NCBI RefSeq assembly: GCF_041146795.1
Contig: NC_135187.1
Span: forward strand, 20,678,556 to 20,742,555
Direction of reading: 5' to 3'
DNA length: 64,000 bases
DNA from: Maylandia zebra
Lineage: Eukaryota; Chordata; Actinopteri; Cichliformes; Cichlidae
In this document: in pieces, positions 1,838 to 53,951 of the stretch
How positions within the stretch are numbered: position 1 is the stretch's first letter
How the letters are laid out: every line of letters starts with the position of its first letter
The notes under the pieces: model-generated
What the model was told of the DNA's origin: nothing
The model's database searches: none
Seen by the model: only the letters and a program-made list of their open reading frames with translations
Program-made: the position numbers and the translations under genes

Positions 1838-3245
1838 ATGATCTTGCTCCTCTTCTTGTTCAGTCTGGCTCTGGGTGCTCCTTCTGAGTCTCCTTCTGAT
1901 GGCAATGAAGTGACGCTACAATGTGGTAACTGTCCTGTAGTTTGGCTAATCTTTTCTTTATTTACTTTGACCTTTATTTATGTTTTTTTTGTAATTTTAG
2001 CACCTTTTAGTTAAACACTCCAAGAATATGTTTTTTTATGTTTCTGATGTTTTTTGTTTCAGCAGATACTGTGATACAAAAATGATTATTGCAGGATTAT
2101 AATATGTTTTTTTTTCTTCCCATACCAGATGGTTTCTCCTAAATCATAGAGTTATGATAAAGACCTGCTAATAAACACAAGAGCCACTTTGCTCTCTGTG
2201 TATTTCAACTTTCATCTTTGACTTTGTCACTATAAATAATCTCCATCTGTCAACACTTCAGGTTAAGTGGATGGAAATCATATTTTCCTTTTGATGCTTA
2301 ACTGTGTTAGCTTCTACCTTTCAGGAGTTCAGGAGTTTTTACCTGTTAGAGCTCTGACCTGTCCTGTTTGATTAGTCATTGTGCTGACGACGCCTTTATG
2401 ATACAATAAATATAAATTATACATCAAAAAACAAACAACATTTCTTCAAGTGTTTGGAATTTGATTTTTTATTTCTGGCTTTAGTTTGATTTTAGTCAAA
2501 CACTAAAATTTTCATCTGTGTCTGTTTCAGCAGTCAGCGATTCAAAATTCTTGGTGTTTCATTGTAACATATATTTTTTTCTCCATGTCAGATGGGTCCT
2601 ACTATACTGTAGAGTTATGATAAAGACCTGCTTGTAAACATAAAAAAGCAACTTACTTATCTCCACGTTTTAACTTTCACTGTCAACTATGCAGATGTGC
2701 TTTTCTCATATTCTTTAGTGGGTACATCAAAAAAAAAAATTCAGCTATACTGACAAAAACAGTTATTGTTTGTTTTTCATTAAGTTCTGACAGCTGTGTC
2801 TTCTTCAGATGACCACAGAGTTAAACTACTGCGTGGAAGCTGTCCCCCGTTCTGGTACAGTTTCAATGGCCGCTGCTACAAATATGTGGCCACACACATG
2901 AGCTGGGCTGATGCAGAGCTCTACTGTGTGTCACAGCGAGCCAACCTGGTGTCTATCTACAGCCAGGAGGAAGAAGAGTTTGTTAAATCATTAATTAAGA
3001 ACTTTGACCATGCTCAGCGATACACCTGGATTGGACTGAGTGACCTCCATAAAGAAGGCAGATGGATGTGGTCTGATGGTTGTGCAGTGAGTTTCACCCA
3101 CTGGAATGCTGGTGAGCCAAACAACGGACTTGGAGGAAAAACTGAACACTGTGTTCACAGTATCGGTGACTTAAATAAGTGGAATGATCACCAGTGTTCT
3201 CTCAATTTACCTTCTGTTTGTGCAACACGGATAAACTGCCCTTAG
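1838..3245 (+). CDS. L1: secreted C-type lectin, EPN type
   Basis: Two exons, 1838-1925 and 2809-3245, join in phase 1 to give 174 residues. Residues 1-13 are a hydrophobic leader (MILLLFLFSLALG), probably cleaved before APSE, so the product should be secreted. The lectin domain spans about 41-174: WIGL at 103-106, EPN at 132-134 (mannose-type calcium/sugar site) and WND at 154-156. Family knowledge pairs Cys41-52, Cys69-167 and Cys144-159; Cys121 and Cys173 are extra and may pair. Exon edges rest on G|GTAACT at 1926 and TTCTTCAG|AT at 2808. The whole domain sits in one exon, unusual for this fold. It resembles fish ladderlectin or nattectin-like proteins, which bind microbial sugars in mucus and plasma; that role is inferred. 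A possible ATTAAA poly(A) signal lies near 3434. Confidence 0.9.
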
Positions 3246-9763: not shown

Positions 9764-9851
9764 ATGATCTTGCTCCTCTTCTTGTTCAGTCTGGCTCTGG
9801 GTGCTCCTTCTTAGTCTCCTTCTGATGGCAGTGAAGTGACGCTACAACTTG
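9764..9851 (+). pseudogene. Orphan lectin leader exon
   Basis: This is an 88-nt copy of the lectin leader exon with its donor site (G|GTAACTG), but codon 17 is TAG (9812-9814). About 400 bp of recognisable lectin intron follow, then unrelated sequence and a large hAT insertion. No lectin-domain exon lies before the next leader exons at 15.5-16 kb. It is probably the front of a unit whose domain exon was lost. Confidence 0.75.
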
Positions 9852-13842: not shown

Positions 13843-15403
13843 TTCCTACTGTCAGGTTTCCGACAAAGAGGCGGAGAACGTCAGGGTTAGTTGAAGTAAA
13901 CCTGCTAGGGGGCAGGTTAGCTTCACGGAGTGTGTCGTCATAGTAACTCACTCAGAATTAATCTAAACTCGCTTTGTGAATCCGAAAACCCAGAGTTTTC
14001 GTTAACTCAGGGTATACTTACTCAGAGTTTGCACTAAACCGGCTTTCTGAAACAGGGCCCAGGTGAGACACACATGTTAGTCAAATGGTTGTTTACCAAA
14101 AGTATCACCGTATCATAGGTCCTCATGTATCTCGTACCTAGTGTTTCTTTTTAGGCTTGCTATTTTTCAAATTCTATATTTATTAAGTTATGCAGGCTTG
14201 TTTGCACAACAAGGCTAAATAATTATATAAACTTTTCTCAATCTAAATAGTGGACTTTGGTAGAATTAAAAAAAATAAGTGTAGTGCAGGTCTATGATGA
14301 TTTTTAGTGCTACTATCATCTAGTTCTGATTCTGGTTCTGTCTTGGTTAAATCCTCAGTAGTCCTGATTTTGAACTGTCACACTGTCACATATGCAGGTG
14401 TCCTGCATATGTGATATATATTTTTTCTTTTTTGAACAAAACTCAAAACAGTGCCTATTAATCTTTCAGTCATTTCTAAACACCCCCCCCCCCCCAAAAA
14501 AAGGGCTAAGCCCCGGGTGTTTCAAATGTCTGGCTCCGCCTCTGCTGACACAAGTACTTTGCTGTACTGTAATTCATATCATAAAAGTCCTTCTTGGCAA
14601 AATGAAACATTTAGATTAGATGTTAAAACATGAGCTCTCCACTCCCTTTTTTCACAACAGGAAACCTGCATAAAAATGGATCAATTGTAGAAATCCTACT
14701 TACAGTAACTAAATAACTCTCTTAAGTGGTTTCTATATACAAACTGCTGGAGGGCTATAAAAAGATAGAGGTTCACTTCCAAATGTCAGTTTCCACTGTT
14801 AGAAATGTTATCAGGAAACTTCAGTAAAGAGATATGGTGGAAGCTCAGATGAACAAAGCTTTAAGAACGTCACACAAACCTCTCACGAGTGCCAAATATC
14901 TGCAGGACAGTGTAGCTGACACAGCAGTGGTAATGATCTGCTTTTAGATTAGTCTGGTTACTGCAGGGGTTTTATTATGGATGCCTTAAAATTGTAACAG
15001 ACACAAGGGTGCTTAGACATTTGTATACACTGTAAATATCTCAAAGTGGAAAAGTAAAAAAAAAAAAAAAGTTGTTAATAGTTCGTCTATTTTGTCATTT
15101 ACTCCCATCAGACCTGCCACAGCAGTCACATATCTCTGGGTCCAGTACTAAGAGAGGATCCTCTTGATTGTGTGGAGTTCATTCTGTCTTTGTGTAATGG
15201 AGCAACTCAGGAGTTTTTACCTGTTAGAGCTCTGACCTGTCCTGTTTGATTAGTCATTGTGCTGATAACACCTTTATGGTGCAATACATACAAATTATAC
15301 ATCAAAAAACAAACATTTCTTCATGTCTTTGGAATTTAATGTTTTTTTTTCTGGATTATGTTTAGTGTTGTGTACAGTTGAGAGTTTTGGGCCATTTGGC
15401 CAG

Positions 15404-15449
15404 TGATGTCACACCAGCAATGAAAACACCCTCTCAGGCAGCTATAAAA
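15404..15449 (+). promoter_or_regulatory. Lectin-type promoter, upstream member of a pair
   Basis: TGATGTCA at 15404 and TATAAAA at 15443 are 39 bp apart. It drives the decoy leader at 15542. The second promoter of the pair has its TATA at 15924. Confidence 0.7.
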
Positions 15450-15541
15450 GAAAGCAGCTCCAACTCTCTGCAGGAATCTGAACATCCTGTAGGAAGAAGC
15501 TTCAGCAGCTCCTCATCATCTTTGAGACTTAAAGCTCCAAC

Positions 15542-15595
15542 ATGATCTTGCTCCTCTTCTTGTTTGGGTTGCTCTGGGTGCTGAGTCCTCTTTAA
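15542..15595 (+). other. Decoy lectin leader ORF (17 codons)
   Basis: It reads MILLLFLFGLLWVLSPL then TAA at 15593, with no donor site at the end. Leader homology is clear up to FG; after that a one-base shift relative to the true leader changes the frame. It matches the decoys at 1400 and 34173. Confidence 0.6.
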
Positions 15596-16023: not shown

Positions 16024-16111
16024 ATGATCTTGCTCCTCTTCCTGCTCGGTCTTGCTCTGGGTGCTCCTTCTGAGACTCATTCTGATGGAAGTGAAGTGAA
16101 GCTACAACATG
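16024..16111 (+). pseudogene. Orphan lectin leader exon with open frame
   Basis: A complete 88-nt leader exon reads MILLLFLLGLALGAPSETHS... and ends G|GTAACC. The expected intron follows, is interrupted by an LTR (16419-16832), resumes, and breaks off at GACTGCTGTGTC near 16921, exactly where the lectin exon should begin. The domain exon is missing. It could splice only to L2's exon at 19653, which would need a transcript of about 4 kb. Confidence 0.7.
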
Positions 16112-18959: not shown

Positions 18960-20086
18960 ATGATCTTGCTCCTCTTCCTGTTCAGTCTGGCTCTGGGTGC
19001 TCCTTCTGAGGCTCCGTCTGATGAAAATGAAGTGAAGCTCCAACTTGGTAACTGTCTCATATTCTGACTGCTCTTTTCTCTACTTTTCCCTTTATTTATG
19101 TCTTTTTTATTTCACTTCGAGAACATGTTGTGCATATTTCTGATGTCTCTATTTAAGCAGAGTCAATGATACAAAATTCTACAAAATTCCCAACATCAGA
19201 TGGGTTCTACTCTTGTTAATCTCGTTAAAGTGACATTAAAGCCATAACCGCTTTAACGCGGCTAATCTCCGTTAGCAAGTTATCACGGATCGCCCCATCT
19301 GTGGGGCTGGACGACACTAATGCATTAACGAGCTAACTGTGCTGAGGCTTTGACACCTTGCACCTTCCCGCGTTGATGCGGCTATGGCGTTAAAGTCATT
19401 TTAATGAGATTAACGCTGACAGCACTAGTTTTACTATAACACAGAGTTATGATAAATACTTGCTGGTAAACACAATAAGAGCAGCTTACTTCTCTGCATG
19501 CTTTAACTTTCACAGTGTCAACTGTGCAGACATGCTTGTCTGATGTGCCGTCTCTGAAGAATCCCAAAGAAAAAAGTCTGTCACACTGACAAAAACCTGA
19601 TCCCTTTCATTCCTGCTTTTTCATCAAGTTCTGACTGCTGTGTCTTCTTCAGATGACCACAGAGTTCAACTACTGCAAGAAAGCTGTCCCATGTTCTGGT
19701 ACAGCTTCAATGGCCGCTGCTACAAATATGTGGCCACACACATGAGCTGGGCTGATGCAGAGCTCTACTGTGAGTCACAGCGAGCCAACCTGGTGTCTAT
19801 CCACAGCCAGGAGGAAGAGGAGTTTGTTAAATCATTAATTAAGAACTTTGACCATGCTGAGGGACGCACCTGGATTGGACTGAGTGACCTCCATAAAGAA
19901 AGCAGATGGATGTGGTCTGATGGTTGTGCAGTGAGTTTCGTCTACTGGCATGCAGAACAACCAGACAACGCAGGAACAAATGAACACTGTGGTCACACTA
20001 ACTATTCAAACTTAAAGAAGTGGAATGATTACCAGTGTTCTCTCAATTTAGCTTCTGTTTGTGCAACACGGATAAACTGCCCTTAG
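18960..20086 (+). CDS. L2: secreted C-type lectin, QPD type
   Basis: Exons 18960-19047 and 19653-20086 join in phase 1 to give 173 residues. The leader MILLLFLFSLALG is followed by APSEAPSDENEV. The lectin domain holds WIGL, then EQPDN in the sugar site, then WND, so the motif is QPD, associated in the family with galactose-type ligands. The eight cysteines match L1, including the extra SDGC and terminal INCP pair. Donor G|GTAACT and acceptor TTCTTCAG|AT are as in L1. A 214-bp MITE sits in the intron (19211-19424). Specificity is inferred from the motif only. Confidence 0.9.
19211..19424. mobile_element. MITE in the L2 intron
   Basis: Inverted termini GTTAATCTCGTTAAA on the left and TTTAATGAGATTAAC on the right enclose a GC-richer core of GCGTTAAAG-like repeats. 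Paralogous lectin introns (L1, L4) lack it, so it inserted after the duplications. Exact ends are uncertain by a few bases. Confidence 0.7.
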
Positions 20087-31209: not shown

Positions 31210-32393
31210 ATGATCTTGCTCCTCTTCCTGCTCGGTCTGGCTCTGGGTGCTCCTTCTGAGTCTCCTTCTGATGAAAATGAAGTAAAGCTCCAACTTGGTA
31301 ACTTTTTTTGTGCATTTTTTTTTTGTCTTTTTAATATTATTTAGCAAATAATAGATTTTAAATGCACCTTTATCATGTTTCTTGTTTTGTTTTGCTCAGG
31401 ATAAATATGTGTTAGTGTAATTGGGGATACATGCATTAATTTGGTTCCACGTTTCAAACCTCCAGCAGAACCAGGCTCAGACAGGAGCAGCCATTTGCTG
31501 TGACTGGTGGAACTTTAGGCCTCATCAAAAAGAAAAGCTTAATATTAAAAGTAGATTATTGATTATCTGTGTCCTTAATCCAAACTGGCTGATTACACAT
31601 TAGAGGAGGCTTAAAGCGGAAGGCTCTGCCTCCCATTCTACTTTTAATTAACCTCAAAACCACAAGTAAACCAGCAGTCTGAGAGCAAAGTACTCCATTG
31701 CTCTTAAAATAAGATGTAGCCTGAGTATTTAATACCTTGTATGTGAGGAGAAGGATTTTAAATTTTAATCTGGATTTAGCAGGGAGCTGATGCAGAGAAG
31801 CTAATATGTAATGTTTCTTTCTATTCCCTGAAGTACATACAGAAAAGCAGCCTGACACCAGGTCTCACCTTTAGGATATTAGCAGTACAGATCAGGTTTC
31901 TTCTGTTACTAAAAAACAAATCATGATCTTTTTCCTCTTCTTGTTTCTGTCTTTTTCAGATGACCGAGCAGTGCAGCTGCAGCATGGAAACTGTCCCCCG
32001 TTCTGGTGGAGCTTCAACGGCCGCTGCTATACGTATGTAGCTACACCGATGAGCTGGTCTGATGCAGAGTTCCACTGTTTGTCACAGGGAGCCAACCTGG
32101 TGTCCATCCACAACATGGAGGAAGAGAACTTTGTCAGATCCTTGATCAGGAACTTCGATCGTGCTCAGAGAGACACCTGGATTGGACTCAGTGATGTTCA
32201 CAGAGAGGGCAGATGGATGTGGTCTGATGGCTCTGTGGTACGCTTTTTTAACTGGCTTGCAGGCGAGCCAAACAACCTGGAAAAAAACGAACACTGTGTG
32301 CAAAACAACTTTGGTCCTGTTAAGAAGTGGAATGACGAACCATGCTCTCGTGGTTATCCCTCTGTTTGTGTAAAACGCAATGCTTGTGCTTAG
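31210..32393 (+). CDS. L3: divergent C-type lectin, EPN type
   Basis: Exons 31210-31297 and 31960-32393 give 173 residues in phase 1. The leader is MILLLFLLGLALG. The domain has WIGL, GEPNN and WND, so a mannose-type site. L3 is the most diverged intact copy: SDGC is SDGS, while the terminal cysteine (RNACA) remains, leaving it without its usual partner. The exon is also open upstream to an ATG at 31924 reading MIFFLFLFLSFS directly into DDRAVQ, a second possible leader that needs no splicing. Its intron carries another dispersed repeat. Clustered AATAAA-like sites near 32585 may end the mRNA. Confidence 0.88.
31440..31860. repeat. Dispersed repeat in the L3 intron
   Basis: This fish repeat contains TGTATGTGAGGAGAAGG and CTGCCTCCCATTCTAC-type segments. 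A related fragment is at 51740-51950. Other lectin introns lack it. The family is not identified, and it ends about 60 bp before the alternative ATG of L3. Confidence 0.55.
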
Positions 32394-33182: not shown

Positions 33183-34036
33183 AAACCACTTGAAGGCTAT
33201 AAAAAGATAGAGGTTCACTTCCAAATGTCAGTTTCCACTGTTAGAAATGTTATCAGGAAACTTCAGTAAAGAGATATGGTGGAAGCTCAGATGAACAAAG
33301 CTTTAAGACGATCACACAAACCTCTCACATGAGTGCCAAATATCTGCAGGACAGTGTAGCTGACACAGCAGTGGTAATGATCTGCTTTTAGATTAGTCTG
33401 GTTACTGCAGGGGTTTTATTTTGGATGCTTTACAATTGTAATAGACACAAGAGTGCTTAGACATTTTTATACAAGGTAAATATCTCAAAGTGGAAAAGTA
33501 AAAAAAGAATTAACACACAGTCTTTTTTAAATGAAAAAAAAACTAAACAGGGTTTGTTTTGTATTTTTAACTGGAAAGATCACAATCTTCTGTTTCCTCT
33601 TCCTGGTACAGTCATTTATCTGTTTTCTTTTTGCTGATAATGTGATTTTATAATATAGTAAAACCATAATTATTCAGACAAACAAACAGTGAAGTAATTC
33701 TACTAAACCAAAGGTGCTAATAGTTGATCTATTTTGTCATTTACTGCCATAGGAGAGTCACATATCTCTGGGTCCAGTACTAAGAGAGGATCCTCTTGAT
33801 TGTGTGGAGTTCATTCTGTCTTTGTTTAATGGAGCAACTCAGGAGTTTTTACCTGTTAGAGCTCTGAACTGTCCTGTTTGATTAGTCATTGTGCTGATAA
33901 CGCCTTTATGACACAATAAATATAAATAACACATCAAAAAACAAACAACATTTCTTCATGTGTTGGAAATTTGATGTTTTTTTCTGGCTTATGTTAAATA
34001 TTGTGTATAGTTTAGAGTTTTGAGCCATTTGCCCAG

Positions 34037-34082
34037 TGATGTCACACCAGCAGTGAAAACACCCTCTCACTCAGCTATAAAA
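34037..34082 (+). promoter_or_regulatory. Lectin-type promoter, upstream member of a pair
   Basis: TGATGTCA at 34037 and TATAAAA at 34076, 39 bp apart. It serves the decoy leader at 34173. Confidence 0.7.
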
Positions 34083-34172
34083 GAAAGCAGCTCCAACTCT
34101 GCAGGAATCTGAACATCCTGTACAAAGAAGCTTCAGCAGCTCCTCATCATCTTTGAGACTTAAAGCTCCAAC

Positions 34173-34226
34173 ATGATCTTGCTCCTCTTCTTGTTTGGGT
34201 GGCTCTGGATGCTCAGTCCTCTTTAA
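34173..34226 (+). other. Decoy lectin leader ORF (17 codons)
   Basis: It reads MILLLFLFGWLWMLSPL then TAA at 34224. It is paralogous to 15542 with no donor site. If transcription runs on into L4, this would be a signal-peptide-like upstream ORF. Confidence 0.6.
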
Positions 34227-34540: not shown

Positions 34541-35470
34541 ATGATCTTGCTCCTCTTCTTGTTCAGTCTGGCTCTGGGTGCTCCTTCTGAGTCTCCTTCT
34601 GATGGCAGTGAAGTGAAGCTACAACATGGTAACCATCCTATATTCTGACTCTTCTTTCCCCTCCTTTATTTAACTTTATGTTTGTGGGGGGGGGTTTATT
34701 ATCTTAATCACAATTTAGTCAAATACTCCAAGATTTTCTGTTGTCTGTTTCAGCAGTCAGTGATACAAAATTCTTGGTGTTTCATTGTAACATAGATTTT
34801 TTTTTCCCCCCGTGTCAGATAAGTTCTACTATTCTGTAGAGTTATGATAAAGACCTGCTAATAAACATAATAAGAGCAGCTTATTTCTCTGCATTTTTTT
34901 AACTTTCACCATGTCAGCTGTGCAGACGTGCTTTTCTGATGTTCTTCAGAGGTTACATCAAAGAAAAAATGTCAGTCACACTGACAAAAACAGTTATTTG
35001 TTTTTCATCGAGTTCTGACTGCTGTGTCTTCTTCAGATGACCACAGAGTTCAACTACTGCATGGAAACTGTCCCCCGTTCTGGTACAGCTTCAATGGCCG
35101 CTGCTACAAATATGTGGCCACACACATGAGCTGGGCTGATGCAGAGCTCTACTGTGTGTCACAGCGAGCCAACCTGGTGTCTATCTACAGCAGGGAGGAA
35201 GAAGAGTTTGTTAAATCATTAATTAAGAACTTTGACCATGCTGAGCGATGGACCTGGATTGGACTGAGTGACATCCATAAAGAAGGCAGATGGATGTGGT
35301 CTGATGGTTGTGCAGTGAGTTTTGTCTACTGGGATACTAGCGAGCCAAACAACAGTGGAACAAAAGAGCACTGTGTTCACACTAACGTGCGTGAAGTAAA
35401 GAAATGGAATGATCACCAGTGTTCTCTCAATTTAGCTTCTGTTTGTGCAACACAAATAACCTGCCCTTAG
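34541..35470 (+). CDS. L4: secreted C-type lectin, EPN type
   Basis: Exons 34541-34628 and 35037-35470 join in phase 1 to give 173 residues. Leader MILLLFLFSLALG, then APSESPSDGSEV. WIGL, SEPNN and WND are present; the eight cysteines match L1, with the terminus ITCP. The first two thirds of the domain are almost identical to L1, while the sugar-binding loop differs (VYWDTSEPNN against THWNAGEPNN). A poly(A) signal AATAAA is at 35551. The upstream paired promoter is described separately. Confidence 0.9.
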
Positions 35471-43891: not shown

Positions 43892-44612
43892 TGATGTCAC
43901 ACCAGCAGTAAAAACACCCTCTCAGGGAGCTACATAAGACAGCAGCTTCAACTTTGAATTCAGAAATATGAACATCCTGTACAGTGAAGCCTAAGCAGCA
44001 CCAGTAGTACCATTTAGTGAAGCTTAAACTTGGTAACTGTCCCATATATTGGTAAGCCCTCTTTTCTCTACTTTTTCCTTTATTTGTGTCTTTTGTTTTT
44101 TCACTCAAAGAACATATTGTTCATGCTTCTATATCTTTTGTTTCAGCAGTCAATGATACAAAATTCTTGATGTTGGATTGAAGCATACATTTCTTTTACC
44201 AATGTCAGATGGATTCTACTATACTGTAGTGTTATGATTATGACTTGCTGGTAAACATAATAAGATACAGCTTACTTCTCTGCATGTTTTAACTTCCACA
44301 GTGTCAACTGTGCTGAAGTGCTTGTCTGATGCACCATCTCTGAAGAATATCAAAGAAAAAAGTCTGTCACACTAACAAAAACATGATCTCTTTCATTCTT
44401 ACTTTTTCATCAAGTTCTGACTGCTGTGTCTTCTTCAGATGACCACAGAGTTAAACTACTGCAAGGAAGCTGTCCCCTGTTCTGATACAGCTTCAATCGG
44501 CGCTGCTACAAATATGTGGCCACACACATGAGCTGGGCTGATGCAGAGCTCTACTGTGAGTCACAGCGAGCCAACCTGGTGTCTATCCACAGTGAGGAGG
44601 AAGAGGAGTTGG
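43892..44612 (+). pseudogene. Lectin pseudogene
   Basis: The promoter keeps TGATGTCA (43892), but TATA is now CTACATAAGA. The leader ATG and hydrophobic part are deleted; only the last bases of exon 1 (AAACTTG|GTAACTG) remain near 44027. The lectin exon starts after TTCTTCAG at 44439, has Trp changed to stop in the CPLFW motif, and ends abruptly after HSEEEEEL at 44612. The remaining two thirds are missing. Confidence 0.85.
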
Positions 44613-45812: not shown

Positions 45813-46923
45813 ATGATCTTGCTCCTCTTCTTGTTTGGTCCGGCTCTGGGTGCTCCTTCTGAGTCTCCGTCTGATGGCAATAAAATGAAGCTCCAACTTG
45901 GTAACCATTCTATGTTTTACTTCGTAACCATTCTATGTTTTCCTTATGTTTCTGATGTTTTTTGTTTCAGCAGGTAGTGTTATCCAAAAAGTATTAGTGT
46001 AGGATTATAATATGGATTTCTTTTCTTCCCATACCAGATGGTTTCTGCTAAATCATAGAGTTATGATAAAGACCTGCTAATAACCATAATAAGCCCCACT
46101 TTCTTCTCTGTGTATTTTAACTTTCACATTGATGGGCAGACTTTCATCTTTCATTTTGGCACCATAAATAAGTAAGATTAAAGTTAGATAATAGACTTCT
46201 TACAAAGTGAAGCCATGTACAGTAACAGTCATTTCAACTTTCACTGTGGCAGTTATTTGTAGCATTGATCTGTAAATGACAGACATGTAACCAATCTTCT
46301 CTGAATAGTTCAGGGGTTTAACAATGAAGATGTGAAGGCTTGAAAACTAGACCAAAGAAAACAGTCTGTCACCAGGTGTCACCCTTGAAATACCAGAGCT
46401 GACCAGCTTTATTTCTGCAAAAACACGATCTCTTTAACTCGTACTTTTTCACTTGATCCTAACTGTGTCTGTGTCTTCTTCAGATGACCACAGAGTTCAA
46501 CTACTGCATGGAAACTGCCCCATGTTCTGGTACAACTTCAATGGCCGCTGCTACAAATATGTCGCCGCACATATGAGCTGGGCTGATGCAGAGCTCTACT
46601 GTGTGTCACAGGGAGCCAACCTGGTTTCTATCCACAGCCAGGAGGAAGAGAACTTTGTCAGAACCTTAATTAAGAACTTTGACCACACTGAGGGAATCAC
46701 ATGGATTGGTCTGAGTGACCTTCATAAAGAAGGCAGATGGATGTGGTCTGATGGTTGTGCAGTTCGGTTTGTCCACTGGTATCCACAACAGCCAGACAAC
46801 TGGAAGGGAATTGAACACTGTGGTCACATGAACTATTCAAATGTAAAGAAGTGGAATGACTTCCCATGTTCTGTAATTTCTCCTTCTGTTTGTGCAACAC
46901 GAATAACCTGTCCTAAAACATAA
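45813..46923 (+). CDS. L5: secreted C-type lectin, QPD type
   Basis: Exons 45813-45900 and 46484-46923 join in phase 1 to give 175 residues. The leader is MILLLFLFGPALG; the proline may weaken it slightly. The domain has WIGL, QQPDN and WND, so a galactose-type site; the end is ITCPKT, two residues longer than the others because the usual stop is lost. Eight cysteines match L1. The intron contains a short ACCATTCTATGTTTT duplication near 45905-45940. An older intronless lectin lies only about 110 bp downstream. Confidence 0.9.
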
Positions 46924-47035: not shown

Positions 47036-49399
47036 ATGACTAACCTTGTATTGTGGATGGATTATGGTAACGGTAAAGACAGTTATTGATGGTATCGTAA
47101 AACCATTAAAATATATATTCAACTTGTCGTTTCAAAAAGGAGTTTTTCCACAAAAAATGAAAGTTGCTAAAGTTATTCCCATTTACAAAACCGGTGAAAG
47201 ACATCATTTTACAAACTATAGACCAGTGTCAATACTCTCCCAGTTCTCTAAGATACTGGAAAAACTCTTCATAAAAAGATTTGACAGTTTTGTGGAAAAA
47301 TATGAATTAATGACAGATAGTCAGTATGGGTTCAGAAACAACAGATCAACAGCTTTGGCACTGATAGATTTAATGGAAAAGATAACGGAATGTATGGATA
47401 ATAAGAGGTATGCGCTCTGAGTTTTCTTAGATCTAAAGAAGGCGTTTGATACTGTTAATCATGAAATTCTATTAAAAAAACTGGAAAAGTACGGGTTTAG
47501 GGGAGTGGTTTTGGAATGGTTAAAAAGCTATGTAGGGAATAGGCAACAATATGTACAAATAAATGAATATAAATCTAATTTGATGGATATAGCTTGTGGA
47601 GTACCTCAAGGTTCAGTACTGGGTCCAAAAATGTTTATTATGTACTTAAATGATATCTGCAGAGTATCGGAGATTTTAAAGTTTGTAATATTTGCAGATG
47701 ACACAAATATACTGTGTGCAGGTGGGGAATTGCCACAGGTTTTGGAAATGATCACACAGGAATTAACGATATTAAAGAAGTGGTTTGATATAAATAAATT
47801 ATCATTGAATCTCGATAAAACCAAATTTATGTTGTTTGGAAACCAAAAGAAAAACATCGAAGTAGAAATATGTGTTGACAATGTATATTTAGAAAGAGTA
47901 AATGAAATAAAATTTCTTGGGGTGATCATTGACCACAAGCTCTGTTGGAAGCCACACATTACTTATGTTCGGGGGAAATTGGCACGGGGCATTGCCGTCC
48001 TGGGAAAAGCAAAGCATATGTTGGATCAGAAAGCACTGCACATTTTATACTGTGCTTTACTACTGCCATATATGAGCTACTGTGTAGAGGTCTGGGGAAA
48101 CACATACAAAAGTAACACACAAACAATAACTATAATACAGAAAAGGGCCATTAGATTAATAAATAATGTAGGGTACAGGGACCATACAAATGCACTCTTT
48201 GTCAAAATGCAAGCTATTAAATTCCAAGACTTGGTGAAGCTTAAAACAGCGCAAATAATGTATAAAGTCAGAAATAAATCGCTTCCCAAAGAAATCTGTA
48301 AATTGTTCATAGAAAGAGAAGGTGGGTATAACTTAAGAGGGAAATGGAATTTAAAAATACAAAGTGCTAGAACAACTTTAAGAACTATGTCAATCTCAAT
48401 TGCAGGAGTTAAATTATGGAACAGTCTAACAGAAGAAATAAAAGACAGTCAAAACATAAAACAGTTTAAAGTAAAATATAAAAACCTAATTTTAAATAAG
48501 TATAAGAATGAAGAAAACGGGGTTAACCCAGGATGGTAATGTTGCTGGTAATGGTGTTGCGGTTCTTTTTTGGTTGTTTTTTTGTTTTTTTGTTTTGTTT
48601 TGGTTTGTTGTTTTTCCATAACTTGTGTATCTGCAAATATACACATTCTGTATTTTTCATATGAAAGAAACTATACTGTGGTGGGGCTTGCTAATTTCTT
48701 GTTTTTGATTTATGTATGTTATGTTTTGTTTTACTTCATATGTTTATATGTTTCATATGTTGTTTGTTTAATTTAAGACAAAAAAAAATTAAATGAATGA
48801 GAGGTAAAACTTGAGGGGGTAGGGACAAATAAGTAAATACTTCAGCCTACTCTTTTTCAAACAAATAATGGAATGATATTTTGTAATGATTGTGAAGGCA
48901 CATGTTTGAAATGTTTGAAATAAAAATGAACTGAACTGAACTGAACTGAACCTTGTCTTCTTGCTGGTTCTGGGTGCTCTATCGACTTCAGATGAACAAG
49001 AAGTACATTTATTGTGTGGTAACTGTCCCCAACCCCTGGTACAGCTACAGCTGCTACATGCACAATGCTGTAACTATGACCTGGGCTGATGCAGAGCTGC
49101 ACTGTGTGTCAGAGGGAACCAACCTTGTGTCCATCCAGTCTGAAGGAACATAATTTTATCCAAACCTTGTGTAAGACCTTAAGTGGTGAAAATGTCTTCA
49201 CTTGGATCGGACTTGGTGACATTCACAAAGAAGGCAGATGGATGTGGTCTGATGGATCTCAAGTCAGCTTTGAATTATGGGGTCAAGGAAAGGAGACCTG
49301 TGCACACATAAACTTTGGCCCAGATGTTATATGGAATGACCTTGAGTGTCCAAAAAACCCCTTTCTTTTGTATGTGCAACTCGCACTACTGGTCGTTAG
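47036..49399 (+). pseudogene. L7: intronless lectin pseudogene split by a LINE
   Basis: The pre-insertion gene started ATG ACT AAC CTT GT (47036-47049) and resumes CTTCTTGCTGGTTCTGG after 48956, reading a leader (MTNLVFLLVLGA) straight into STSDEQEVHLLCGNCP with no intron. The domain keeps TMTWADAELHC, FTWIGLGDIHKEGRWMWSDG and a WND-like VIWNDLEC, but has about three frame breaks (near 49037, 49149 and 49355) and no EPN or QPD motif. SDGS rather than SDGC suggests an older branch like L3. No separate promoter is seen. Confidence 0.8.
47050..48948 (+). mobile_element. CR1/L2-group LINE, 5' truncated, one stop
   Basis: AACCTTGT flanks it (47042-47049 and 48949-48956). Reverse transcriptase motifs occur in order: NYRPVSILSQFSKILEKL, DSQYGFRNNRSTALAL, FLDLKKAFDTVNHEIL, CGVPQGSVLGPKMFIMYLND, catalytic FADDTNIL, FLGVIIDHKLCWKPHI. 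A single TGA (47418-47420) breaks an otherwise open frame ending at 48537-48539. The 3' end has TGAAC repeats. The clade within the group is unsure. It lacks an endonuclease and is fairly young. Confidence 0.85.
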
Positions 49400-53092: not shown

Positions 53093-53951
53093 ATGATCTT
53101 GCTCCTCTTCTTGTTTGGTCTGGCTCTGGGTGCTCCTTCTGAGTCTCCTTCTGATGACAATGAAGTGAAGCAACAACCTGGTAACCGTCACATTTTCTAG
53201 CTCTTATTTTCCCTTATTTACTTTTACCTTTATTTGTGGTTATTATGTTAGCAAAAGATCATTTTATGTGGATATTTGTTACCTTATGCTCCTCTTCTTT
53301 GTAACTGTGAATGAGGGAAAAGCTTTTGCTGAATGCATTTGACCAGTGGCATTATTTCAACTGTGCAGCCATGATTCTCTGCAGCGCTTAAATTAAAGCA
53401 GTTACTTGTTTCAATACCAGCAGAGCATTTTCACCTCTGTTTCTGTGACTCTGAGAAAAAAAATCTCTTCAACATCTTAACAGTTTCATCCAGCCCTGAA
53501 TTCTGTTTTCCTTTCAGGTGAACGGAAATTTAAACTGCAACGTGGAGCCTGTCCCATGTTCTGGTGGAGCTTCAATGACCGCTGCTACAAATATGTCGCC
53601 ACCCGCATGACCTGGGCTGATGCAGAGCTCTACTGTTTGTCACAGGGAGCCAACCTGGTGTCCATCCGCAATACAGAGGAACAGAGTTTTGTGAAAAACC
53701 TGATCCAGAACTTTGACCACGCAGAGGGACTCACCTGGATTGGACTCAGTGACAAGCATAAAGAAGGCACCTGGATGTGGTCCGATGGTTGTCCACTGCG
53801 TTTTGTCTACTGGAGTCGAACACAACCAGATAATGAGAGAGGAAATGAACACTGTGTTCACACCAATGTAGTATCAGATAAGAAATGGAATGACTACACG
53901 TGTGCTAACAATTTACCTTATATTTGTGCAACACGCATTACCTGTCCTTAG
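53093..53951 (+). CDS. L6: secreted C-type lectin, QPD type
   Basis: Exons 53093-53180 and 53518-53951 join in phase 1 to give 173 residues. The leader MILLLFLFGLALG is followed by APSESPSDDNEVKQQPG. The acceptor is CTTTCAG|GT and the second exon starts ERKFKLQRGACP, unlike DDHRV in the others, so this region diverged or was exchanged. The domain has WIGL, TQPDN and WND (galactose type) and all eight cysteines. The intron is short (337 bp) and mostly unlike the others. AATAAA at 53990 is a likely poly(A) signal. Confidence 0.9.

Follow-up and report, generated by a model that had tools for sequence, protein, structure and literature searches.

In a tandem array of C-type lectin genes of Maylandia zebra, the intron between the leader and the lectin domain was found to have both of its splice sites inside two copies of one coding segment, and an imprecise intron gain through duplication of the 5′ end of the gene is the best explanation we have for it, and a probable one. 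The case is a new and unusually legible form of a known route to introns: one can read where both splice sites, and probably the polypyrimidine tract too, came from, and apparent before, between and after states stand in a single genome. Intron insertions in vertebrates are described as very rare and obscure in mechanism (PMC3151243), and a limited literature search, by title and abstract start, gave no earlier report of this case among the matches listed. The first-pass annotation of this DNA had proposed a tandem duplication in which existing codons supplied both splice sites, which is supported here by a duplicated 54-nt core and by a promoter-bearing, uninterrupted locus (L026). It had taken the duplication to be internal to an exon, and in this respect the proposal is revised, since the copied piece is the 5′ end of the gene with its leader. 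We add that the 3′ end of the intron is an ex-leader, that the copies share one event, and that each surplus splice site has disappeared.

The lectin array and its two-exon genes

The window is the whole 64,000-nt stretch under analysis, positions 20678556-20742555 of C21 (a chromosome-scale contig in a 962-Mb assembly); 170 kb were fetched around it, and 234 kb were analysed in total. The array consists of C-type lectin genes with a hydrophobic leader as exon 1 and the whole lectin domain as exon 2. A genome search with one domain gave at least 45 matches at E <= 1e-10 among the best 150 candidates scored, at least 28 of which lie at ~20.62-20.82 Mb of C21. The domain of the first gene matches Lectin_C with 83.4 bits against a curated cut-off of 22.6 (Pfam PF00059, E 2.3e-23); the leader is predicted from its hydrophobic reading, and secretion is putative. 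The boundaries that the first-pass annotation had drawn for the gene at 1.8 kb are those of the first three lines below and hold, with a spliced ORF of 174 aa.

1838..1925, + strand: exon 1 of the lectin gene at 1.8 kb, with the leader and the first copy of the 27-nt segment (ORF, 88-nt ATG-to-donor length)
1926..2808, + strand: intron of 883 nt, GT..AG, opening as the lectin-domain codons Gly-Asn-Cys-Pro
2809..3245, + strand: exon 2, the entire C-type lectin domain (Pfam PF00059 E 2.3e-23, ORF)
9764..9851, + strand: exon 1 of a pseudogene, with an in-frame TAG; donor 9852
16024..16111, + strand: exon 1 copy, donor 16112; adjoining exon 2 not found
18960..19047, + strand: exon 1, donor 19048; exon 2 at 19653-20086
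31210..31297, + strand: exon 1, donor 31298; exon 2 at 31960-32393
34541..34628, + strand: exon 1, donor 34629; exon 2 at 35037-35470
45813..45900, + strand: exon 1, donor 45901; exon 2 at 46484-46923
53093..53180, + strand: exon 1, donor 53181; exon 2 at 53518-53951
44033..44438, + strand: intron of a decayed copy, with ACATGATCTC of the ex-leader kept at its 3′ end; an exon 2 fragment follows from 44439

From the ATG to G/GTAAC (the slash marks the junction) the length is exactly 88 nt in all eight full-length exon-1 copies of the window, one of which has an in-frame stop, and in all eight the donor GT lies inside GGT AAC codons, as had been proposed. Across the array, 16 of the 19 exon-1 units are followed by an exon 2, and the spliced ORF is full-length (171-175 aa) in 14 of these 16 pairs and truncated in the other two. 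The counts exclude a decayed copy (array 62.5 kb) and a minus-strand copy (array 42.5-42.9 kb); those of spliced ORFs and of second leaders additionally exclude two exon-2 fragments.

The part of the window at ~34-47 kb recurs ~70-74 kb further along the chromosome with its lectin units in identical order, an identical 143-aa lectin domain included, and is apparently a recent segmental duplication. Three of the 17 matches on other chromosomes (L028-L030) were examined and are not of the leader-plus-one-domain type. Among relatives outside the genome, 46 and 39 pattern matches in viral_contigs and genome_contigs were obtained, none of them confirmed.

The duplicated core and the reach of the two copies

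The sequence around the donor and that around the acceptor are two copies of one 54-nt core, located in the first gene as follows.

1893..1946, + strand: first (donor-side) copy of the 54-nt core (gapless alignment, window scan)
2803..2856, + strand: second (acceptor-side) copy of the 54-nt core (gapless alignment, window scan)

In this gapless register, 54 nt spanning the donor (33 of exon 1, then 21 of the intron) pair with 54 nt spanning the acceptor (6 of the intron, then 48 of exon 2). The two sides share 36/54 positions between the window consensuses and 39/54 between the array consensuses, so that intron starts do align to the lectin exon as had been expected; the exact 18-mer quoted as a consensus in the first-pass annotation has no match in the genome. 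When the window was scanned on both strands with the exon-1 consensus, places of at least 33/54 were the eight exon-1 copies, seven acceptors, an eroded exon 1 at 44000 and nothing else. In the 234 kb (both strands), the 21 anchored forward acceptors score 35-41/54 against the exon-1 consensus, and all places above 29 among 467,854 other positions are recognisable by location: two eroded exon-1 copies (37), minus-strand lectin units at ~38.99 and 42.92 kb of the array (37 and 35), L7 and L026 (33), a decayed exon 1 at 168675 (30), and stretches at 170957 (32) and 225496 (30), which are also weak matches of the leader profile. The remaining positions reach at most 29/54, and two of the three scoring 29 fall within lectin introns. 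The similarity of the two sides is thus far beyond chance. Its weakest partner is the exon 1 at 31.3 kb (25-29/54 against the acceptors); the opening of the intron as a lectin domain, which had been claimed for every copy, holds generally, but this copy has only GGTAACT before a T run.

Both splice sites lie within the duplicated codons, with 27 nt (nine codons) between the AG and GT positions, and the predicted mature protein has a nine-residue repeat, e.g. DGNEVTLQC / DDHRVKLLR. The doubling of a segment in the mature protein, as had been suggested, stands for these nine residues but not for the whole Ser-Asp motif, as the Ser before the acceptor is intronic. The acceptor AG, which had been placed in TCA GAT, reads TCAG/AT in six of the seven window copies and TCAG/GT in the 53.5-kb copy. 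The surplus acceptor is absent from all 19 exon-1 units, which read TCTG and once TCTA, and the surplus donor is absent from all seven exon-2 regions of the window and from all 17 distinct array rows; GTAACTGTCC is still present in the exon-2 region of the decayed copy at array 62.5 kb, which these counts exclude.

Upstream of the core, a profile of the acceptor region matches all eight exon-1 copies of the window (E 6.1e-8 to 9.4e-5), in four alignments beginning at ATG-3 and four extending into the 5′UTR with large gaps. These matches, whose score is partly contributed by the 54-nt core, indicate that the intron ends in ~60 nt that are the counterpart of the leader. In the first gene this is the following piece.

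2743..2808, + strand: counterpart of the leader, eroded, with the polypyrimidine tract, a CTGAC branch-point-like site and the acceptor (profile matches, splice-signal table)

In a leader-only test, with pairwise alignment to three leaders and 500 dinucleotide shuffles per leader, significance was obtained for the 31.9-kb intron (0 of 500 with every leader), for the 44.4-kb intron (0, 0 and 2 of 500) and for L7 (0, 4 and 7 of 500). The 19.6-kb intron was borderline (15, 11 and 60 of 500), and four of the seven window introns, including that of the 1.8-kb gene, were not significant, so that two of the seven (31.9 kb and 44.4 kb) are clearly leader-like on this test. Beyond the window the leader stands out more plainly: six lectin-domain starts besides the 31.9-kb copy of the window match the exon-1 profile (E 1e-7 to 2e-4), four further ones are weakly matched (0.02-0.09) and some are unmatched; in one gene, 5′UTR-like sequence seems present too at the intron end, an observation made with no control. 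At the other end, a 440-position exon-2 profile aligns to the exon-1/intron-start sequence up to position 55 and not beyond, so the 3′ end of the duplication is sharp: homology ends after the Phe-Trp codons that open the lectin domain, and no lectin relics were found in the intron past the Trp codon.

A promoter profile run over the introns gave nothing convincing (best in-intron E 1.9). Against the promoter of the 19-kb gene, the best score of the 53-kb intron was reached by 1 of 250 real segments and its mean by 5 of 250, and 8 of 11 promoters align to this intron at one place, where the implied ATG (53479-53487) is ~20 nt off the expected relic. In the 31-kb intron too the best score exceeds the null (0 of 250 segments reached it, and 28 of 250 the mean), at a place inconsistent with its ATG; the other six introns show no excess, between 13 and 175 of 250 segments reaching their best score. 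In a comparison with the promoter consensus, the intron-body consensus was equalled by 430 of 1000 shuffles and the 53-kb intron by 134 of 1000, neither being significant. A promoter relic within the introns was dropped for want of proof.

Three extra promoter-plus-leader cassettes (1256-1440, 15398-15582 and 34033-34214), in which the leader is broken after ~42 nt, precede the exon-1 copies at 1838, 16024 and 34541 by ~370-480 nt, which indicates that 5′-end duplication occurred again in the array. The intron at 1926-2808 is itself a mosaic, with the common intron body present twice and interrupted at ~2330-2493 by a stretch of up to 96% identity to sequence upstream of other genes' promoters. 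Exon 1 also has a repeat of its own at the leader end, CTCCTTCTGA, a 10-nt unit present twice at 1878-1899, 2 nt apart; this pair is missing from L026 and from the intron-end leaders.

A tree of the duplicated units placed exon-1 units and acceptor-side units in separate groups (support 96 and 95 in the window, 99 in the array), which means a single duplication older than the array expansion. A separate duplication in each gene is rejected, as trees constrained to pair the two exons of every gene gave p-AU values of 0.002 and 0.0004 (IQ-TREE, with a warning that 5,000 replicates were few).

The acceptor tract holds 14-18 pyrimidines in 20 nt in the seven window introns, and its coding counterpart in exon 1 holds 14-17 in the eight full-length window copies and 8 in the eroded one. 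CTGAC stands 18-19 nt before the junction in four of the seven window introns and CTAAC at ~21 nt in one; the sixth shows only TTCAT, further up, and the seventh no such motif. At the place matching CTGAC, exon 1 and L7 read CTGGGT. As the branch-point consensus is YTNAY, CTGAC and CTAAC are candidate branch points, and use of the GGTAAC donor and TCAG acceptor in splicing is likewise a prediction from the sequence.

Uninterrupted relatives and a probable origin of the intron

Two relatives in the array, L7 and its sister L026, have the leader and the lectin domain in one piece.

48949..49398, + strand: L7 pseudogene, an unbroken run of leader end, TCAGAT and GGTAAC motifs and lectin domain, truncated at the 5′ end by a LINE-like element

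In L7 the leader end runs through TCAGAT and GGTAACTGTCCC into the lectin domain without a break. Its reading in the first-pass annotation, as an intronless copy holding both motifs once and contiguously, is right about the motifs, but L7 alone does not serve as an intronless gene, because its 5′ end is cut by the LINE-like element and every exon-2 region has both motifs once. The uninterrupted gene state is shown by L026 instead, outside the window at C21:20618701-20621955, where a TATA-like promoter, 5′UTR, leader, TCAGAT, GGTAACTGTCC and the lectin domain stand in one piece with no intron; it matches the exon-1 profile over positions 127-419 (60.3 bits, E 4e-18). The nine-codon repeat is absent from both loci, in which the segment is single-copy, and both are frameshifted pseudogenes.

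The LINE-like element that abuts L7 (~47058-48950) has, by eye, a reverse-transcriptase-like frame and a (TGAAC)n tail, and we read it as a 5′-truncated LINE from this reverse-transcriptase-like text. An empty site for it was considered, since joining the flanks at a shared 8-mer gives an open leader, but L026 differs upstream there and the fit is taken as coincidence.

In the origin that we propose, the ancestor would have been uninterrupted, with promoter, leader and lectin domain in one exon, like L026. One duplication of the 5′ end, which took in at least the stretch between a point shortly upstream of the ATG and the first Phe-Trp codons, and possibly the 5′UTR as well, would have produced two leader-plus-lectin-start units in tandem, and transcripts from the upstream unit would have been spliced from the Gly-Asn codons of unit 1 (G/GT AAC) to the Ser-Asp codons of unit 2 (TCA G/AT). 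Since the AG-to-GT distance is nine codons, the frame would be kept and the nine-residue repeat gained. The Leu/Phe/Ser codons of the second leader would have supplied the polypyrimidine tract, and the Leu-Gly stretch (CTGGGT) would have turned into the branch-point-like CTGAC in four of the seven window copies. The surplus sites would then have been lost, by TCAG to TCTG at the acceptor of unit 1 and GGT to GGA at the donor of unit 2. Among later fates, the second leader would have been lost in most genes, both leaders kept in one subfamily and exon 1 lost in one gene. A gain rather than a loss is suggested by the paralogues, the structure and the mixed ancestral-looking states, the unit tree being unrooted.

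The strongest competitor, which we consider improbable, is that the common ancestor of all copies had the intron and that L026 and L7 are revertants, in which recombination between the units deleted what lay between. A deletion of this kind could readily use the repeats that flank the intron, and the tree is compatible with L026 among the acceptor-side units: placement with the acceptor-side subfamilies gave p-AU values of 0.73, 0.34 (core subfamily) and 0.09, placement between the two unit groups 0.51 (array tree), and placement inside the exon-1 units a borderline 0.05. However, a single crossover predicts exon-1-like followed by exon-2-like sequence, whereas both loci have the exon-2-like TTCAGATGA upstream of the exon-1-like GGTAACTGTCC, and the 6 extra nt found in the exon-1 leader are missing from L026. 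Even if the two loci were revertants, the duplication would remain the source of the intron.

Still less credence is given to an older intron before the lectin exon, in which case the duplicated piece spanned the intron/exon boundary and brought along a ready-made acceptor, tract and branch point, and the exon-1 leader was built from the 3′ end of the intron. This has a published precedent in potato RdRp (PMC4974935), and a pyrimidine-rich intron end may well read as a hydrophobic peptide. The contiguity of promoter, 5′UTR, leader and lectin domain in L026 speaks against it, as do the in-frame ATG leaders at the intron end in two groups of copies; moreover, L7 and L026 keep CTGGGTGCT as in the exon-1 leaders, with 13 pyrimidines in 20 nt and no CTGAC. 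It is very improbable that L7 and L026, though intronless pseudogenes, are processed copies of spliced mRNA and hence uninformative on the ancestor, as had been raised for L7: L026 has its TATA-like promoter upstream of the presumed transcript start, and the nine-codon repeat expected from spliced mRNA is missing in both. That the similarity reflects a donor consensus and common amino-acid composition instead of descent is next to impossible, because short motifs by themselves are weak but a gapless 54 nt in a single register across the copies, with an upstream leader match, is not so explained.

The 5′-end duplication resembles known duplication-made introns in that one coding segment, present in two copies, provides both splice sites, and the nine added codons fit the form called 'imprecise', which adds nucleotides to the coding sequence, in a review that also cites a vertebrate case tested in vivo (PMC3443670). 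In the classic form described there, one AGGT serves, whereas in the lectin source 27 nt separate AG from GT; and, unlike the classic form, the copied piece in the lectin array is the 5′ end of the gene with its leader, so the lectin intron may have begun as an alternative first exon. The ATP2A intron of jawed vertebrates, dated to nearly 500 million years ago (Hellsten et al. 2011, via PMC3443670 and PMC4974935), is likewise a vertebrate intron from a duplicated coding segment, but there the segment contains AGGT and the case was experimentally tested, while the lectin case is known from sequence and has intermediate-looking states in one array. Intron 2 of potato RdRp shares the tandem duplication, the donor from coding sequence and the added exonic sequence, but its 3′ signals came from a parental intron, and those of the lectin array apparently from leader codons (PMC4974935). 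The soluble antifreeze-like C-type lectins of fish also have one C-type lectin domain, but are described with two or three introns in the domain-coding region (PMC514892), unlike the single-exon domain here; among the single-domain chains of a PDB list, a type II antifreeze protein ranks first, below multi-domain receptors.

Second leaders and states within the array

A leader with an in-frame ATG, 36 nt ahead of the junction codon, was found in 6 of the 19 exon-2 copies checked, and one further copy has an unrelated upstream ATG. The example in the window is this.

31923..31959, + strand: intact second leader at the 3′ end of the intron, open into the lectin domain (MIFFLFLFLSFSDDRAV...)

Five of the six are near-identical in the leader, one of them with a truncated lectin domain, and the sixth is the gene at C21:20.768 Mb, whose exon 1 has, by eye, a stop and a changed donor. 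The states in the array look like alternative outcomes after a two-leader stage.

We put forward tentatively, and with less than even confidence, that the array preserves the stages of an intron's birth together: the uninterrupted L026, two usable leaders in the MIFFLFLFLSF subfamily, a decayed second leader in most copies, and a reversal at C21:20.768 Mb, where exon 1 is lost and the second leader kept. The intron would have begun as a choice between two promoters or leaders, and C/T-rich signal-peptide codons would have supplied its tract. If this is so, the route may be general, because a duplicated signal-peptide exon brings a pyrimidine tract with it; if confirmed, 5′-end duplication would be an easy way to make introns, the leader codons being already pyrimidine-rich.

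Among 16 distinct exon-1 sequences, codon positions 1-3 have 11, 10 and 6 variable sites, with no concentration at the third position, and these counts thus do not support selection on the leader in exon 1. The gene at C21:20.645 Mb (L035) has the shortest intron among the 16 pairs, 134 nt, with the duplicated units almost back to back; this state probably arose by later deletion, because a close relative has a 342-nt intron.
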